NCBI GenBank assembly: GCA_022819825.1
Contig: JAJEGM010000001.1
Span: forward strand, 62,001-126,000
Direction of reading: 5' to 3'
Source: Acidimicrobiia bacterium
GTDB taxonomy: Bacteria; Actinomycetota; Acidimicrobiia; Acidimicrobiales; Bin134
Length of the DNA: 64,000 bases
Below, one piece after another: positions 6,764 to 34,416 of this stretch. Position 1 is the first letter of the stretch. Every line of letters starts with the position of its first letter. The position numbers and the translations under genes were made by a program. The notes beneath the pieces were generated by a model, which searched no databases, was not told where the DNA came from, and saw only the letters and a program-made list of their open reading frames with translations.

Positions 6764-8055
6764 TGTTCCTGTCGTATTTCACCGAGCAGCCCATGAGCGC
6801 CTACCCGGCCGATGAAGGCTTGAAGGAGGGCTTCACCTCGGTGATGTTCTCCAACAAGTACTACGACCCGGTGGAGGGCAGCCGCCTGTTCAACGAGCGC
6901 ATCGAGGAGTACAAGCTGGCCGATCAGGTGGGCTTCGACGGGATCATGGTGAACGAGCACCACAACGCCCCGTTCTGCATGCAGGCCCGCATCACCGTGA
7001 TGTCGAGCATCCTGGCCGCCATCACCGAGAACGCCAAGATCGTGCAGCTCGGCAACCCGCTGCCCACCTACGACAGCCCGCTGATGTTCGCCGAGGAGAT
7101 CGCCATGATCGACATGATCTCCAAGGGCCGGCTCATCTCGGGCATCGTTCGGGGCGCAGGGCAGGAGTCGGTGTGCCTCAACGCCAACCCGGCCTACAAC
7201 CGGGAGCGATTCAACGAGGCCCACGACCTGCTGGTCAAGACCATGACCGACGACGGCCCGTTCTCCTGGGAGGGCGAGCACTTCCAGTACCGGGTGGTAA
7301 ACCCCTGGGCTCGGGTGCTGCAAAAGCCCCACCCCCGCATCTGGGTGCCCGGCGTATTCAGCGCCGAGACCATCCGCTGGGCCGCCCAGCACCGCTATCC
7401 CTACATCTCGCTCAACACGCCCCTTCATCTCACCGGTGAGCTCTGGGAAATCTACGACCAAGCGGCCCGAGCGGTGGGCTACGAGCCCGGACCGGAGAAC
7501 CGGGGCTACTTGCTGCGAGTCCATGTGCAAAAGGACGGTGACAAGGCCCGGGAGAACGCCCGGGAGTTCATGTGGATGCAGGGCGAGTTCACCGGCATCG
7601 GCCATCCCTACTGGGTGAGCCCGTCGGGCTACGGCTCGTCGGCCCGTCGGCTGGACTACGCCAAGATGGCCAACGCAGAGGTGCGAGGCTCTCGGGCCGC
7701 CCCGTTCGAGCAGCAGTTGGCCGCTCGGGAGATAGTGGCCGGCACCCCCGAAGAGGTGATCGCCGAACTGCGGGTGGTGCTGGAGACGTGCCGACCGTCG
7801 ATCCTCATGCTGTGGGGCAACGACGGGGACGTCAACCACGACGACTCCCTGCGGTGCATCGAGCTGATGGGCACCGAGGTGCTGCCCGCCCTGCGGGACA
7901 TCGGCGACGAGCTGGGACTCCATGACCCCTTCGAGCTGGACTCCCCGATCAGCCTGGCCCTAACCCCGCCCGATGAGCTGAACCCGATCGAGTCGGCCGC
8001 CGACGAGCGGCCTGAGGACACCTCGGACAGCCGATCGCTGAAGATGTTCCGATAA
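6763..8055 (+). CDS. Luciferase-like flavin-dependent monooxygenase
   Basis: 430 residues from ATG 6763, with GGAGGA 8 bases upstream. The segment GFDGIMVNEHHNAPF and the later ISGIVRGAGQE are characteristic of bacterial-luciferase-like two-component monooxygenases or F420 enzymes. It has about 70 residues more than the other two LLM proteins here, including an acidic C-terminal tail. It sits between an alpha/beta hydrolase and a cupin, with overlapping stop and start codons on both sides. That arrangement suggests an oxygenation-then-hydrolysis catabolic route for an unidentified compound. Confidence 0.88.
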   Translation: MFLSYFTEQPMSAYPADEGLKEGFTSVMFSNKYYDPVEGSRLFNERIEEYKLADQVGFDGIMVNEHHNAPFCMQARITVMSSILAAITENAKIVQLGNPLPTYDSPLMFAEEIAMIDMISKGRLISGIVRGAGQESVCLNANPAYNRERFNEAHDLLVKTMTDDGPFSWEGEHFQYRVVNPWARVLQKPHPRIWVPGVFSAETIRWAAQHRYPYISLNTPLHLTGELWEIYDQAARAVGYEPGPENRGYLLRVHVQKDGDKARENAREFMWMQGEFTGIGHPYWVSPSGYGSSARRLDYAKMANAEVRGSRAAPFEQQLAAREIVAGTPEEVIAELRVVLETCRPSILMLWGNDGDVNHDDSLRCIELMGTEVLPALRDIGDELGLHDPFELDSPISLALTPPDELNPIESAADERPEDTSDSRSLKMFR

Positions 8056-8522
8056 TGGGCGAGCAACAACCCCAGGTGTCCTACATCCACGCCGAAGACA
8101 TGGACTTCGCCGAGGTGAAGAGCCAGCAGCACGCCGACGGCCGCCGGGTGTCGGTGTGGCTGAAGCTGATGGAGCTGACCCAGGAGCGGGCGGTGTACCA
8201 CACCCGCTACGACCCCGGTCTGGTGCTGGAGCGCCACGGCCACAACAGCGACCACTTCATCTTCGTCATCGACGGCGAGGTCACCTTCGATGAGGAAGTG
8301 TGCCGGGCCGGCACCCTAATCAAGCTCCCCCACCTGGCCACGTTCGGCCCCATCAAAGTGAGCGACCAGGGCGCCGAGATCTTGGAGATCTACTTCGGCG
8401 ACTCCCGCCCCGCCCCCGCCGACAAAGCCGAGCACGCCGCCATCCTCGAAGAACGCGGCATCACCGAACTCCCCCACCCCCCACTAGACCTCCCCGACTG
8501 GTTCGGCCCGAGGACCGACTAA
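8055..8522 (+). CDS. Cupin-domain protein
   Basis: 155 residues, start codon overlapping the oxygenase stop (TAATG). The cupin barrel motif 1 is visible as LERHGHNSDHFIFVIDGEV, with His-x-His ligands; the usual Glu ligand is not obvious. The rest is short beta strands ending in a proline-rich tail. Single-domain cupins beside oxygenases are often metal-dependent isomerases or dioxygenases, or small-molecule binders. Third gene of the 5966-8522 operon. Confidence 0.82.
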   Translation: MGEQQPQVSYIHAEDMDFAEVKSQQHADGRRVSVWLKLMELTQERAVYHTRYDPGLVLERHGHNSDHFIFVIDGEVTFDEEVCRAGTLIKLPHLATFGPIKVSDQGAEILEIYFGDSRPAPADKAEHAAILEERGITELPHPPLDLPDWFGPRTD

Positions 8523-8578
8523 CTCTCATATTTCCGAATCTCAGCGGAGACAAACCGAGGGCGGGGGGTGGCGCCGCA

Positions 8579-8611
8579 GGCGGAGCTGGCTGCTCCGACA
8601 GCCAGGCCGCC
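8579..8611. terminator. GC-rich hairpin between convergent genes
   Basis: GGCGG-AG-CTGGCTG pairs with CAGCCAG-G-CCGCC around a 6-base loop, giving 12 base pairs with a small internal mismatch. It sits in the 129-base gap between the cupin gene and the convergent amidohydrolase, the place for a bidirectional terminator. There is no T-tract on either strand, so the role is inferred from position. Confidence 0.4.
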
Positions 8612-8651
8612 GTAGGTGACAGGACCCGCCGCCCGGACGCGTGTGTAAGGG

Positions 8652-9773
8652 CTACTCCGGAACCGGAATACCGAACAACCGAGCCGGGTTGTCGGTCAGG
8701 ATCTTGCGCTTGCGCTCGTCGCTGAGGTCGTCGCGCTCCACCAGCAGCTTCACCGAGTGGGGGAAGTCACAGTCCCAGTGGCAGTAGTCCGAGGAGTAGC
8801 ACAGGATGTCGTCGCCCACCTGATCCATCACGTAGGGCAGGGCCGACTCGGTGGACTCCACCCCCACGAAGCACCGTCCCGACAGGAAGTACTCCGACGG
8901 CTTGCGGTCTAGGACAGGGGCTTGGTCGGGCATCAGCTCGTACTCCTCATCCAGGCGCTCCAACCAGAACGGCAGCCAGCCGCAGCCGGCTTCCATGATT
9001 CCCACCCGCATGTTGGGGAACCGGTGCAGTATCCCGCCCACCGTGAAGTTCATCGTGGCCAGCATGGCCCCGAACGGGTGGGTCACGGCGTGCTTCTCCA
9101 GCCGGGTGTTGTAGCGATCGAGCACGATCGGCACCTGATCGGGGGCCTGTCCCCCACCGTGTACGCACACCGCAGCGCTATGGCTGTCGGCCACCTCCCA
9201 AACCGCGTCTAGGGCCGGGTGGTTCAGGTTGCGGTCCAACACGTGCTGGGCGGTCACCATGCCCACGAACACGTCGGGATACTGGGTAAAGCACCGATCC
9301 AGCTCGGCGGCGGCCCGCTCCGGGTCGATCAAGGGCAGCTTGGCCACCAGCTTCAAGCGGGCAGGGTCGTAAGCCGCATAGGTGGCCCGGGCGTCGTTCA
9401 ACAGCCGGCACAGCTCGTCGGCAAATCCGGGATCGCCCAGCGCCCACTCCTCGCCCGATCCCGGCGGGAACATGACGGTCACGTCGATGCCCTCGAGGTC
9501 CATATCGGTCATCCGAGGACAGGGCACCGCCATTCCCTCCCGCTGAAGCGGCGTCTCGAAGTCCAGCTCCCCAGCGGCGTACTCGCCGTAGTTCTGGTCG
9601 TCCTCGGTATGAATCGGCGATCCGGCCCCCGGCAGGTCGCCGTAGATCTCCTTCATCTTGGCCACGTACTCCACCATCTGCGGCCGCCACTCGGCGCTTA
9701 TCCCATGGCGCCACTGGGGCGGCTCACCCCCGTGGCCGTCGGAGTCGATCACGTAGTACCCGTACTTGCCCAT
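8652..9773 (-). CDS. Amidohydrolase family protein (Amidohydro_2)
   Basis: 373 residues. The N-terminal strand YVIDSDGHGGEPP supplies the early D-x-H type metal ligands. VCVHGGGQAPDQ is the central His strand. The late CYSSDYCHWDCDFPHS supplies the conserved Asp. This subgroup keeps a longer N-terminal helical insertion with many acidic residues. Substrate unknown. It diverges from the flavodoxin gene across a 60-base gap. Confidence 0.85.
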   Translation of the reverse strand: MGKYGYYVIDSDGHGGEPPQWRHGISAEWRPQMVEYVAKMKEIYGDLPGAGSPIHTEDDQNYGEYAAGELDFETPLQREGMAVPCPRMTDMDLEGIDVTVMFPPGSGEEWALGDPGFADELCRLLNDARATYAAYDPARLKLVAKLPLIDPERAAAELDRCFTQYPDVFVGMVTAQHVLDRNLNHPALDAVWEVADSHSAAVCVHGGGQAPDQVPIVLDRYNTRLEKHAVTHPFGAMLATMNFTVGGILHRFPNMRVGIMEAGCGWLPFWLERLDEEYELMPDQAPVLDRKPSEYFLSGRCFVGVESTESALPYVMDQVGDDILCYSSDYCHWDCDFPHSVKLLVERDDLSDERKRKILTDNPARLFGIPVPE

Positions 9774-26958: not shown

Positions 26959-29900
26959 ATGGCCGACGCGATGCCTAAGGGTTGGAGTTTCTGGATCGAC
27001 CGGGGAGGCACGTTCACCGACGTCGTGGCCCGAACACCCGATGGCGACGTCACCACCGTCAAGCTGCTTTCGGAGAGCCCCCGATACCGCGACGCCGCCA
27101 TCGAAGCCATCCGGACCCTGCTGGGGCTGAGCGCCGACGAGCCGATCCCGTCGGACCAAGTGGCCGAGGTGAAGATGGGCACCACCGTGGCCACCAATGC
27201 CCTGCTCGAGCGCCAGGGCGAGCCCACCGTGCTGGTCACAACCCGGGGCTTCGCCGACGCCCTCCGCATCGGCTACCAAACTCGGCCCGACCTCTTTGCC
27301 CTCGACATCGTGCTGCCCGACATGTTGTACAGCCAGGTAATAGCGGTGGACGAACGAGTGCGGGCCGACGGCACCGCCGAGCGGTCACTAGATGAGGACG
27401 ACGCCCGACAGCAGCTGGCCGCGGCCCACCGAGCTGGATTGCGGTCGGCGGCCATCGTGCTGGTACACGGCTATCGCTATCCCGATCACGAAGCCCGCCT
27501 GGCCGAGATTGCCGCCGAGGTGGGGTTTGAGCATGTCTCAGCCAGCTATCAGGTGAACCCGCTCATCCGCCTGGTGCCCCGGGGAGACACCACCGTGGCC
27601 GACGCCTATCTCACCCCGGTGCTGCGCCGTCACATCCAAACGGTGGAAGACCAGATCGACACCTCGCTCTTCTTCATGCAGTCCAACGGCGGTCTAGCCC
27701 ACCCCGACCACTTCCGGGGCAAGGACGCGCTGTTGTCCGGCCCGGCCGGCGGTGTGGTGGGAATGGCCCGCACTGGTGAGGCTGCTGGCCACCACCGCCT
27801 GATCGGGTTCGACATGGGCGGCACATCCACCGACGTATCCCACTACGACGGCCGCTTTGAGCGCACTACCGATGCCGTCGTCGCCGGGGTCAGGGTGCGA
27901 GCGCCGATGATCTTGATCCACACCGTGGCCGCCGGGGGCGGCTCGATCCTGTCGTTCGACGGAAGCCGATTCCGGGTGGGTCCCGACTCGGCGGGCGCCG
28001 AGCCCGGCCCGGCCTGCTACGGAAATGGCGGGCCGCTCACCGTGACCGACGCCAATGTCGTTCTCGGCCGCTTGCATCCCGACCACTTTCCGGCAGTGTT
28101 CGGCCCCGGCGGCGACCAGCCACTCGATGCCGCCGCGGCCCGGACCGCCTTCTCCCAATTGGCTGCGGCCATCACCCAGGCCACCGGACAATCGTGGACC
28201 TCAGAAAGGGCTGCTGAGGGGTTCTTGGATGTGGCGGTGCAGAACATGGCCAATGCCATCAAGACCATCTCGGTGCAGCAGGGCCATGACGTGAGCGCCT
28301 ACACCTTGGCCTGCTTCGGTGGCGCCGGCGGCCAGCATGCCTGTCGGGTGGCCGACGAACTGGGCATGTCCACCGTGTTGATCCACCCCCACGCCGGAGT
28401 GCTCTCGGCGTTGGGCATCGGCCTGGCCGACGTGCGCTCGGTAACCGAGCGAGCGGTGGGTCAAACCCTCACCGAGAAGCTGCTGGGCGCCGTCGCCACC
28501 GACATCGGGGAGCTGGCCGCCGCGGCCTACACCGAGGTGGCCGCCGACCTGCCCCACTCCAACATTCACATTGAGGCCAGCTATTTCTTGCGGTACGAGG
28601 GATCTGACACCGCACTCGAAGTGGTTGCCAACGACTACCGGCCGGTGGTGGCCGCTTTCGAAAACCTCCACCAGACCCGCTTCGGATTCGCCTCTCCCGA
28701 GACGCCGATCGTGCTGGAGTCGATCCAAGTGGAAGCCATCGGCCGCAGCAGCCTGTCGGAGACCCTGGCCGAACAGCCCTCCAACGGTTCATCACCCGAA
28801 ACCAGCCCCCTGGCCAACCACGAGGCCAGCTTCGAGGGACAGGCCCAAGACATATCCTTCTTCGACCGGGCCGAGCTGGGATCGGGGGCGGCCATAGACG
28901 GCCCCGCGGTCATCATCGACCCCCACTCCACCACAGTGGTTGAACCGGGCTGGGCCGCGGCGACAGCCCCAAGCGGCGAACTCGTGTTGCGCCGCATAGC
29001 CCCCCGCACCGGTGCAGCCGTGGGCACTCATGCCGACCCGGTAATGCTGGAGATCTTCAACAACCTGTTCATGAACGTGGCCGAGCAGATGGGGGTGGCG
29101 CTGGAGAACACCGCCGCTTCGGTGAACATCAAAGAGCGACTGGACTTCTCTTGTGCGGTGTTTGACCCCGACGGCGAGTTGATCGCCAATGCCCCTCACA
29201 TGCCGGTCCACCTGGGCTCGATGGACATGGCGGTCAAGGCGATCATCGCCCGCCATCCCGAAATGGCGCCGGGCGACGCCTTCATCACCAACGCCCCCTA
29301 CAACGGCGGCACCCACCTGCCCGACGTGACCGTGGTCATGCCGGTATTCGATGCCGACGGCGATGAGGTCTTGTTCTTCACCGCGTCGCGCGGCCACCAT
29401 GCCGACATCGGCGGCACAGTCCCCGGCTCAGCCCCCGCCGACGCGTCGCACATCTCCGAGGAGGGGGTGCTGTTCGATGGCGACGTTCTGGCCCGGGGCG
29501 GGCGGTTCCAGGAGGCCGAGATCCGGGCCTTGCTCACCGATGCCGAGTGGCCGGCCCGCAACCCCGACGTCAACATCGCCGATATCAAAGCCCAACTGAC
29601 CGCCTGCCAGAAGGGAGCCGTCTCCTTGGGCGAGGTGATCGACTACTACAGCTTGGAGACGGTGCATGCGTACATGGACCATGTGAGGGCCAACGCCGCT
29701 GACTCGGTCCGCCGCCTGATCGATCGCCTAGAAGACTCCTCGTTTACCGTTGCGTTCGACGACGGTTCCCGAGTGTCGGTGACGTTTCGCATCAATCGCG
29801 GCCAACGGAGGCTCACCGTCGATTTCACCGGAACCAGCGACCAGCACCCGGGGAACTTCAACGCCCCCCAGCCGGTGTGTCGGGCCGCGGTCCTGTACGT

Positions 29901-30567
29901 GTTGCGCTGCCTGGTGGATGACAACATCCCGCTCAACAGCGGCTGTCTGGAGCCGGTGGAGCTGATTATGCCGTCACCCAGCATGATCAGCCCCGTTGAG
30001 CCCGCCGCAGTGTTCGCCGGGAATGTGGAGACCTCTCAGCACATCGTGGACACCCTGTTCGGTGCAGTGGGCACGGTGGCCGCCTCTCAGGGGACGATGA
30101 ACAACGTGGTGTGGGGCAACCAGCGACACCAGTACTACGAGACGGTGTGCGGCGGCGCGGGGGCCACCGCCCGACGGGACGGCTGCGACGCAGTACACAC
30201 CGGGATGACCAACGCCCGGCTCACCGACCCCGAGGTGCTGGAGCAGCGCCATCCAGTGGTGGTGGAGGACTTCTCCATCCGACACGGCAGCGGCGGCGCG
30301 GGCCGCCACCGGGGCGGCGACGGGGTGGTGCGGCGCACTCGGTTCGAAGAGGCCATGAGCCTCAACGTGCTGTCGTCCCGGCGGGACGTCGCCCCCTACG
30401 GCATCGAGGGCGGCTTGCCCGGCGCCGTCGGGATCAACCGCATACTGAGGTCTGACGGCACCGTTGAAACCCATCCCGGCGTTTTCCGCACCGAGGTGGA
30501 GCCCGGCGACCGTTTCGAAGTGTTCACCCCCGGCGGCGGAGGCTACGGACCGCCCGAGGAGCGCTGA
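26959..30567 (+). CDS. Hydantoinase/5-oxoprolinase, fused A and B subunits
   Basis: 1202 residues. The first half (about 1-690) is HyuA-like: [49 protein letters not shown] and [15 protein letters not shown] are actin-like ATPase-fold motifs. The second half (about 695-1200) is HyuB-like: [23 protein letters not shown] region, MPVHLGSMD, and TPGGGGYG near the end. Fused forms are usual for ATP-dependent 5-oxoprolinase, but hydantoinases and acetophenone carboxylases share the architecture, so the substrate is open. It follows glf by 6 bases and overlaps the convergent 2Fe-2S gene by 25. Confidence 0.92.
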
Positions 30568-32804: not shown

Positions 32805-33341
32805 CTACGCCGCCGCGGTCAGGCGGGTGATGGCTTCGTCGATGATGGTGGTGGCCAGCTTTTGGAGGGATTCGTCGTCGAGGGTGGAGACGGGGTGGGG
32901 CACGGTGACCGCGGGGTAGGTGGCCATGCCTACGGTGGGGGCGAAGGACTCGACCACCGGCTGGAACGGCTCGGTGATCAGCAGCATTGAGGGGATGCCC
33001 CGGGATTCCATGTGGACGGCGTCGTGCAGACTGCACGCCGTGCAAGCCCCTCAATCGCCCAGCCCGGAGATGATGAGGTGGGAGCGGGCGGCCAGCATCT
33101 CGGCGTCGTCGGCGTCGATGGGCTTGCCTGCGGCCGACTTGGAGTGAACCACGATGTCGGCCACCGGGAGTCGATCCCGCAGGCCCTCGGCCACATAGGT
33201 GAGCAGCTCCTTGGCGTTGTTCTTGGCGTTGTCGATCACCCCGACCACCACCGGCTCGCTGGGAGTGAAGCGGGGGGCCATCGCCACCTCATCGATTTGG
33301 GCTTCTTCGTACACCGGAGACAGAACAGTTACCGACGACAT
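32805..33341 (-). CDS. UGSC-family selenoprotein with in-frame TGA (Sec97)
   Basis: 178 residues from ATG 33341 (AGGAG 6 bases upstream), with the TGA at 33051-33053 read as selenocysteine. The N-terminal half reads as a flavodoxin-like alpha/beta fold (VVVGVIDNAKNNAKELL, then HLIISGLGD). Directly after the TGA the frame continues GACTACSLHDAVHMESRGIP and ends with VTVPHPVS and an Ala-rich helix, the C-terminal half of the UGSC family. The motif here is U-G-A-C rather than U-G-S-C. A strong hairpin begins 9 bases after the TGA. Function of the family is unknown; a Sec-Cys redox site is suggested. Operon partner is the gene 13 bases upstream. Confidence 0.85.
33016..33041 (-). promoter_or_regulatory. 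Candidate bacterial SECIS hairpin
   Basis: On the minus strand, ACGG-CGTGCA pairs with TGCACG-(ACG bulge)-CCGT around a GTC apical loop: ten base pairs. An alternative 7-pair outer stem also exists. The loop begins with G, 20 bases after the TGA, within the distance and loop-G rules known for bacterial SECIS elements, which lie inside the coding region. Cognate SelB recognition cannot be judged from sequence. Confidence 0.65.
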
Positions 33342-33354
33342 GCGATCTCCTCTC

Positions 33355-34416
33355 TCATGCCAAGGGTAGTCCATCGCCGGGAGCAGCCACTTTTCGGGTG
33401 ACCGCCACCGAATGCACAACCGGCGCCCAATTGGGGATGTAGGCCGACCAGCCGGCCCCAGGACTGCCTGCGGTGACCAGGAAGATGTCGTTGGGCCCCC
33501 GCACGGTGTTGAGCTTGCCGTCGGCGTCGGGAGTCATGTCGTTCTGGGCGGTGAACTCCTGCAATACGCCGCCCGCGTTCAAGTGCTCGGGGGTAACCCG
33601 GCTGTGCTCGGCCAAGAACTCCCTCACCTGCTGTTTGGTCCAACCGGCTTCGGCCAGGATCTGGCGGTGCTCGTGGCCGATCACCAGCAATACCTGGTGT
33701 TTCTTGGCCACTGCGTAGGTGGCCGGGTTGGTCATGGCGGCGGCGAAGGTCAGCAGGATCCCCTCGGGGTCGCCGTTGAGGTGGTTGGCCACTTGATGGG
33801 GGCTCTCGGAGGGGAACATCGTCACCGTGGTGTCGCCCTCGCCGTAGCCCAGTTCCACCCGCAGCGGCGGCCACCCCTCGGGCGGGGGCTCCTCGGCCAC
33901 CAGCATGGTGAATTTGCCGGGATGTCCTAGCGACGACCCGTCGAGGCTGTCCGACCGGGCTCCGAGCACGTTCATGGCCACCAGCCTCAGAGCCCGTCCC
34001 ACCGTGGCGTTGGGCCGGTGGCCCGGACCAAGGGCATTGCGAGAGGAGTTGAATCCCAACTCGGCCACCAGCGGTCCGCTCACCACCGCGCACAGCGCGG
34101 CCCCGCCGGTGCTGGTCACCACGGTGTGGCACCCGAATTGGGGGTCGAACATCGCCGACAAGCCGGCAAGCACCACTGGGAAGTACTCGGTTCGGCACCC
34201 GGCCATCACCGCGTTGATCGCCGCCTTCTCCGCCGTCACTTCTCGGGACCGCTCGGGCACGTTGCCCACGATGTCGCCCGGACCTAAACCAGCGTGGTCG
34301 AGCATCGCCTCAACCCGATCCGACGTGGGCGGAACCACGGGCAGCCCATCGGTCCACCCCCGGTCGAAGAACTCCTCTTGCACGTCCCCCGCGTCGAGCA
34401 CCAACTCCTGAGCCAT
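33355..34416 (-). CDS. Conserved-type protein of unknown function, operon partner of the UGSC selenoprotein
   Basis: 353 residues from ATG 34416. I do not recognise a named enzyme family. Visible features are an N-terminal FFDRGWTDGLPVVPPTSDRV, three buried-looking Cys (AGCRTEYFP, FGCHTVV, ALCAVV), a Gly-rich core with LGPGHRPNATVGRALRL, an acidic GYGEGDTTVTMFP and a long helical segment before a Gly-Ala-Trp closing region. There is no signal peptide or membrane helix, so it is probably cytosolic. Its stop is 13 bases before the selenoprotein start, so both are made from one transcript and are likely to act together. Confidence 0.75.
   Translation of the reverse strand: MAQELVLDAGDVQEEFFDRGWTDGLPVVPPTSDRVEAMLDHAGLGPGDIVGNVPERSREVTAEKAAINAVMAGCRTEYFPVVLAGLSAMFDPQFGCHTVVTSTGGAALCAVVSGPLVAELGFNSSRNALGPGHRPNATVGRALRLVAMNVLGARSDSLDGSSLGHPGKFTMLVAEEPPPEGWPPLRVELGYGEGDTTVTMFPSESPHQVANHLNGDPEGILLTFAAAMTNPATYAVAKKHQVLLVIGHEHRQILAEAGWTKQQVREFLAEHSRVTPEHLNAGGVLQEFTAQNDMTPDADGKLNTVRGPNDIFLVTAGSPGAGWSAYIPNWAPVVHSVAVTRKVAAPGDGLPLA

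Follow-up and report, generated by a model that had tools for sequence, protein, structure and literature searches.

The 64,000-nucleotide stretch analysed here (the window; Acidimicrobiia bacterium, assembly GCA_022819825.1, contig JAJEGM010000001.1, positions 62,001 to 126,000) carries at 33341..32805 on its minus strand a UGSC-family gene of 178 codons plus stop, in which an in-frame TGA (33053..33051, minus strand) is predicted to encode selenocysteine (Sec) at residue 97. By every sequence test made here, this gene almost certainly encodes a selenoprotein. Judged by its arrangement, it forms a two-gene unit with the partner gene P3 directly upstream (34416..33355, minus strand). We propose, with somewhat better than even confidence in the explanation as a whole, that P3 and UGSC constitute a two-subunit, thiol-fed selenocysteine reductase encoded in catabolic gene clusters. 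The passages on UGSC in a 2008 ocean survey place it among the major selenoprotein families, with 255 Sec and 21 cysteine (Cys) sequences (PMC2398784), and those in a 2026 review list it among selenoproteins with largely uncharacterized functions (PMC13188914). In the UGSC passages of the literature searched its function is unsolved, and the P3 partner, the UGSC-P3 fusions, the tie to GrdB, and the geometry of the selenocysteine insertion sequence (SECIS) described below go beyond them.

Under the standard code the gene falls apart into two open reading frames, as stated in a preliminary description of this DNA. The coordinates given there are all correct and refer to the minus strand, which it does not name; the partner gene and the SECIS hairpin are absent from it as well. 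The upstream piece (33419..33051, 122 residues) ends in ...HLIISGLGD, halted at the TGA, and the downstream piece (33011..32805) has 68 residues; a gene caller would thus split the gene, as anticipated there. Reading through from the ATG at 33341 yields 178 residues with the text GLGD-U-GACTACSLHDAV...GIPS...VPHP, in which the previously noted HLIISGLGD before the TGA, GIPS and the VPHP ending after it, and Sec at residue 97 are all seen. This TGA is the sole interruption of the 178-codon frame. An AGGAG ribosome-binding site (33347..33351, minus strand) lies 5 nt 5' of the ATG, in line with the claim of a good site at the joined start. The three nearest relatives (loci L028, L120, and L126) keep TGA at the codon of the window gene's Sec, and the homologues do not end there, which answers the doubt raised in the preliminary description. 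Since a family match spans the TGA, relatives keep it, and a hairpin follows it, the joined frame is more than chance.

The family assignment made in that description holds. The window protein matches Pfam PF24696 (UGSC) over residues 6–175 and thus across nearly its full length, with 154.8 bits (E 3e-45), well above the curated cut-off of 25. Against NCBIfam NF041046 it reaches 124.1 bits, 0.9 short of the cut-off of 125, which is a curated naming threshold rather than a biological feature; consequently, the NCBI pipeline might leave the protein unnamed. Searches against PDB sequences return chance-level matches only. The motif reads U97-G-A-C100 and so fits U/C-G-x-C, although it is UGAC and not UGSC. 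As had been suggested, UGAC is a variant: it is common to a small clade of the window protein, L028, L120, and L126, and also occurs in distant members at L034 and L066. Across 101 aligned members, from which those without a recognisable motif were left out, Sec/Cys, G, and C of the motif are invariant, and S is present in 90%. A UGSC relative at L065 (5351-5848) has a stop codon followed by G-S-S in place of G-S-C (UGSS).

The same codon is TGA in 101 of 106 scored UGSC genes, the six of the window's genome included, and Cys in the remaining five. These are loci gathered by protein similarity that have a recognisable motif and enough downstream sequence; six duplicate loci were removed from 118 raw matches, and L065, L091, L097, L132, L134, and one L037 copy were left out of scoring because they were truncated or did not show the motif pattern. 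The search for Cys homologues proposed earlier was therefore successful, and further Cys forms occur on plasmids of bacteria and haloarchaea. In a 112-row tree, the sister of L021, a Sec copy of the window's genome, is a Cys form found within the same order. Beyond the window, this genome holds five UGSC paralogues, and all six copies carry the TGA. They are not grouped in the tree, whose starred branches force at least three changes. The six look like old separate lineages, judging from their sequences, and not like recent duplicates; four of them are long branches whose place in the tree is unsure.

Two other explanations of the TGA can be weighed on these data. A nonsense mutation or an assembly error in a decaying gene is conceivable, as merely one TGA is involved in a draft genome (3.44 Mb, 91% complete) of 57 contigs. 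However, it is very improbable given the TGA in 6 of 6 genome copies and in 101 of 106 scored genes, the selection for a hairpin at third codon positions described below, and the full Sec machinery. All four machinery components that had been proposed as a check are present. tRNA-Sec scores 67.5 bits, above its gathering score of 47, and ARAGORN agrees, calling a tRNA-SeC with anticodon tca. The genes selA and selB lie side by side on contig C43, and selD (354.9 bits; L018) is at C29:50708-51652. As selD holds one in-frame TGA, selenophosphate synthetase is itself probably a selenoprotein here. An altered genetic code, in which TGA would specify another residue, is less probable still, and no observation speaks for it: the neighbouring P3 frame is itself closed by a TGA, which thus still acts as a stop in this genome, the tRNA-Sec has the tca anticodon, and a SECIS is present. 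A linkage to the decoding genes is seen on the Paracoccus ferrooxidans plasmid pFER4 (L195), where a Sec-form UGSC-P3 pair lies between selA and selB, as if pair and decoding machinery had moved together; there, UGSC is annotated as two hypothetical proteins divided at the stop.

Downstream of the TGA, the window gene can form the apical hairpin of a bacterial SECIS (33023..33037, minus strand), in which CGUGCA and UGCACG form all six pairs and enclose a GUC loop that starts 19 nt past the UGA. According to the SECIS passage of PMC13188914, bacterial elements have a loop of 3–9 nt, a stem of 4–16 bp, a distance of 16–37 nt from the UGA, and a G in the first two loop positions; these four constraints of that model were compared, and the window hairpin agrees with each of them. 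We assessed pairing at fixed positions (U of UGA = 0, positions 16–21 pairing with 30–25) in 101 TGA genes, using 200 synonymous shuffles that preserve each protein and its codon set as control. Canonical pairs make up 96.2% of positions in the genes compared to 67.3% in shuffles (maximum 71.1%), and all six pairs form in 83.2% of genes compared to 7.0% (maximum 13.9%). Within the loop, the third codon position at 23 holds T in 96% of genes and in 23% of shuffles. Moreover, the pair 20-26, in which both partners are third codon positions, covaries (C-G 83, G-C 16, T-A 1, and one unpaired A-G; n=101). Alternative registers reach at most 60% pairing over 99 distinct sequences. These patterns indicate that third codon positions are under selection for the hairpin and that the window gene contains a bacterial SECIS.

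Some observations speak against this assignment. The folding energy of a 45-nt segment is not below that of synonymous shuffles for the window copy (z 0.07); the family mean z is −1.10, compared to −0.26 at control positions, and the scores of Cys genes are just as low as those of TGA genes. Because of the value of the window copy and the equally low Cys genes, fixed-position pairing was used in place of folding energy. Further, two hairpins of this genome are imperfect, with 3 of 6 pairs at L020 and 5 of 6 at L024; each has CCG as its loop, without GU. Of the 101 TGA genes, 3 form fewer than five pairs. The five Cys genes form 5, 4, 2, 1, and 3 pairs. A comparison of the hairpin with Rfam gives no match at gathering scores.

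The P3 gene encodes 353 residues, runs in the same direction as the UGSC gene, and ends in its TGA stop with a 13 nt gap before the latter. The window P3 has no NCBIfam match up to E 1, and its best Pfam match (E 0.038) is under the cut-off. The 102 aligned P3 members give one weak match to an unrelated family in each of the two libraries, and nothing convincing is found among PDB sequences. Invariant P3 residues include D23, R141, and E175, while C74 is 99% conserved.

UGSC and P3 are very probably functional partners. The six UGSC genes of this genome all adjoin a P3-like gene, which precedes UGSC in some cases and follows it in others. When named genomes were scanned with the P3 alignment, at least 592 stretches were found, at least 451 of them confirmed; among the best 80 kept as loci, 76 have a UGSC match, which in 74 of the 80 lies within 1.2 kb. 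These 76 include a weak and partial match (L091), the UGSS form of L065, and L097, which lacks the motif. Exceptions arise where P3 sits at a contig end (L035, L062, L071) or UGSC lies farther from the best P3 (L038, L097), and at L089, where no UGSC is found; in L050, the nearby UGSC and P3 are on opposite strands. Across 396 genomes of the phylum, 27 exceed the UGSC cut-off and 31 match P3, all 27 lying within the 31, with a P3 model built partly from those same genomes. The P3-only genomes are three with weak matches (G114, G192, and G351; 19–28 bits) and G183, which has tandem P3 copies and no UGSC match. With a P3 model from this genome's six copies alone, P3 is found in 27 of 29 loci from the UGSC search (L108-L136), and the two misses are sub-threshold UGSC matches. 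Among plasmids, 24 records give a tblastn match to P3 and 16 to UGSC, and 14 regions were examined. Matching paralogues within the genome by their distance profiles ranks the true UGSC/P3 pairing 10 of 720, which is suggestive only, and the overall distance correlation of 0.86 is confounded by phylogeny. Of 109 same-strand neighbours selected, 106 were scanned after removal of three short ones. They include no common operon neighbour other than P3, and the commonest Pfam families reach at most 5 each.

A few arrangements depart from the simple pair. Halorientalis L206 has the order P3-UGSC-P3, and a cluster otherwise resembling it on a Haladaptatus halobius plasmid (L208) has a lone P3 at 6998-7960. 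L201 holds two genes with tandem P3 domains (205-2073 and 6951-9041) in a genome without a UGSC match. On a Neorhizobium galegae plasmid (L207, 7962-9630), UGSC and P3 matches, the latter in two stretches, lie under two hypothetical proteins and adjoin malonyl-CoA synthase and decarboxylase genes; this is possibly a disrupted copy.

In several lineages the two proteins are joined. Seven pairs share a single frame with the Sec TGA as sole stop: L034, L037, L097, L104, L132, and one L066 pair in the order UGSC-P3, and the second L066 pair in the order P3-UGSC. L193, L194, L202, and L205 encode UGSC-P3 proteins with no stop at all. Three of these read ALGDMGTSS or ALADMGTSV around the motif position (L193 8317-10041, L194 8368-10053, L202 5415-7055). 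The UGSC passages of PMC2398784, PMC13188914, PMC9312934, PMC5029168, PMC5330540, and PMC7539508 mention no partner protein, save a UGSC domain fused to a conserved domain named Unknown_1 in the 2008 ocean metagenome study (PMC2398784). That fusion likewise joins UGSC to an unnamed conserved domain, and Unknown_1 may, judged by its description, be P3.

The resemblance of UGSC to GrdB, selenoprotein B of glycine reductase, bears on the chemistry of the pair. Against the GrdB model TIGR01917, 27 of 101 UGSC members reach E 0.01 or better (best 1e-6), and 13 of 101 do so against the wider model TIGR01918; the window protein matches TIGR01917 with E 0.003 at model positions 331–417 of 431. The GrdB family PF07355 is matched in 20 of 28 genomes with UGSC-P3 loci, this genome included. 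Ten of the PF07355 loci were read; five encode a GrdB-like and five a PrdB-like protein, and each of the ten genes has TGA where the Sec codon was expected. In hhalign, UGSC aligns with the five GrdB-like proteins over 100 columns, Sec on Sec, with E 7e-5, and shares with the C-terminal half of GrdB the order strand, Sec, helix. The window protein also contains U-x-x-C-x-x-C, the motif given for GrdB in the relevant passage of PMC13188914, whereas the five compared GrdB-like proteins read U-G-T-S/G-T. The PrdB-like selenoproteins are likewise TGA-encoded and have a short PF07355 match ending at the Sec codon. In contrast to UGSC, they carry a U-P-L-C motif and a different C-terminus, and their profile matches UGSC marginally (E 0.005, probability 7.5%). 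In the PrdB-like gene of the window's genome (L180, C36:242466-242885) the frame runs past the TGA as U-PLCTRTVCVL, and U-PLC genes like it occur in other UGSC-carrying genomes.

Predicted structures bear on an older proposal, that UGSC is a general thiol oxidoreductase of the thioredoxin or peroxiredoxin kind, with an antioxidant or repair role, as in published lists. A thioredoxin-like fold was suggested for UGSC in PMC2398784, and the 2026 review, in its passage on such folds, lists UGSC among Trx-like-fold proteins (PMC13188914). We consider this reading unlikely. The AlphaFold2 model of UGSC, built on the 101-sequence alignment with a mean predicted local distance difference test score (pLDDT) of 94.3, does not show that fold: Foldseek ranks flavodoxin-like proteins first, at modest template modelling scores (TM-scores) of ~0.4, with no thioredoxin in the best 50 of 1512 matches, which argues against the suggested fold. 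As that fold is a printed conjecture, its failure does not bar UGSC membership. The sequence ties to GrdB, the close pairing with P3, and six divergent copies in this genome amid different catabolic genes also disfavour a general oxidoreductase.

On the proposal of a two-subunit reductase, UGSC and P3 would be subunits of one enzyme. UGSC would be a flavodoxin-like domain akin to the selenocysteine half of GrdB, with Sec just ahead of a helix, and substrate binding would fall to P3, in which many residues are invariant. The bound molecule would be attacked or reduced by Sec97, leaving a selenide-sulphide with Cys100. Thiols would reset it, namely thioredoxin supplied by NADPH-thioredoxin reductase, in the manner of glycine reductase. 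For that enzyme, the corresponding passage of PMC3091704 describes a supply of GrdA and GrdB by NADPH, thioredoxin reductase, and thioredoxin. The likeliest chemistry would be reductive cleavage beside a carbonyl or carboxyl group, and different paralogues may serve different substrates in catabolic gene clusters. The passage of PMC10838667 that proposes C-F bond cleavage in fluoroacetate by a GrdB-like operon suggests that GrdB-type proteins can use other substrates.

Linked thioredoxin genes are consistent with such a supply. A TrxB-like gene is near the pair in 5 of the 14 plasmid regions examined, with the orders trxB-trxA-P3-UGSC in Arthrobacter, P3-UGSC-trxB in Roseovarius, and trxB-TctC-SDR-P3-UGSC (SDR, short-chain dehydrogenase) in Variovorax SRS16, whose TrxB-like proteins are 43–53% identical to each other. 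UGSC is the Cys form in these three and in Variovorax boronicumulans, the first four of the five cases. In addition, trxA is near the pair in the named locus L031. This linkage supports, but does not prove, a thiol-fed reductase. We infer the reductase role and regard it as evenly balanced whether UGSC-P3 acts as a thiol-fed, GrdB-like reductase.

Several observations count against the proposed enzyme. The hhalign match to GrdB is weak (probability 63%), and the 178-residue window protein is missing the long N-terminal part of GrdB (~330 residues). P3 was considered and rejected as a relative of GrdE, since its profile matches that of the GrdE-like neighbour of GrdB with E 0.34, so the partners are unrelated. 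At L089, L201, and L208, P3 is present with no accompanying UGSC match. Methionine (Met) replaces Sec/Cys in the UGSC-P3 fusions L193, L194, and L202, and the motif is absent from L097, so that in some lineages P3 must be functional even where this redox residue is missing. The TrxB-like proteins of Variovorax boronicumulans and Neorhizobium (L205, L207) show only about 26–35% identity. Among the best 80 named loci, TrxB-like genes are found in L045 and L068 only (30–36% identical; in L068 ~4 kb off). There are no thioredoxin genes near this genome's six pairs and no TrxB near the four Cys-form pairs of the phylum that have long flanks; in all, TrxB is close to 4 of 14 Cys-form genes.

P3-UGSC might instead be a lyase, hydratase, or hydrolase and not a reductase, with Sec/Cys in the role of a nucleophile or a ligand. 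The best Foldseek matches of the P3 model (pLDDT 94.0) are class I fumarate hydratases (E 2.5e-5), accompanied by cyclic amide hydrolases, yet with TM-scores below 0.3. In addition, on Sporomusa and Vibrio plasmids, aconitase X and DUF126 genes are found close to the Met fusions L193 and L194. Nevertheless, we hold this improbable, to about the same degree as the general oxidoreductase. P3 and the class I fumarase domain have no sequence similarity (profile comparison E 0.33), the U/C, G, and C of the motif are invariant in the 101 aligned members with Sec in 101 of 106 scored genes, and both the resemblance to GrdB and the trxB/trxA genes linked to some pairs favour redox chemistry. A class I fumarase relationship of P3 was rejected: at low TM-scores, a root-mean-square deviation of ~16, and unrelated profiles, the fumarase ranking is not taken as homology.

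The gene neighbourhoods form a mixed catabolic set that points to no single substrate. Among the 106 same-strand neighbours, and counting the best 25 of 163 Pfam families, there are short-chain dehydrogenases, MFS transporters, and NHL-repeat proteins (5 each), amidohydrolases (4), and CoA-transferases, TctC receptors, and thiolases (3 each). On haloarchaeal plasmids, Cys pairs occur with CoA-transferases and TRAP binding proteins, and in L206 also with a CoA ester lyase. The window pair is flanked on one side by an SDR gene, beyond which lie a SnoaL-like gene and ABC permeases, and on the other by a PAC2-family gene followed by SDR, 2Fe-2S, and hydantoinase/oxoprolinase genes. At 26959-30567, hydantoinase/oxoprolinase A and B domains are combined in a single 1202-residue protein.

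Tentatively, and with slightly less than even confidence, we suggest that UGSC-P3 represents an undescribed enzyme class, small, mostly Sec-dependent, and thioredoxin-fed, in which the catalytic half of GrdB is reused with an unrelated substrate-binding partner. On the same reading, held no more firmly, this class would have spread through catabolic clusters in haloarchaea and many bacterial phyla, and its copies would have multiplied inside single genomes; there are six copies here and up to ten matches in G404, two being halves of one gene. The window gene adds a further member to the UGSC selenoproteins, one that gene callers would split in two, and its importance lies in the family. The near-constant partner, the natural fusions, the distant GrdB tie, and some thioredoxin genes lead to a testable hypothesis of a two-protein reductase, and as the natural Cys versions need no selenium machinery, it can be tested in vitro. 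If it is true, GrdB-type chemistry, known from amino-acid fermenters, would reach organisms with other, probably oxidative, catabolism.
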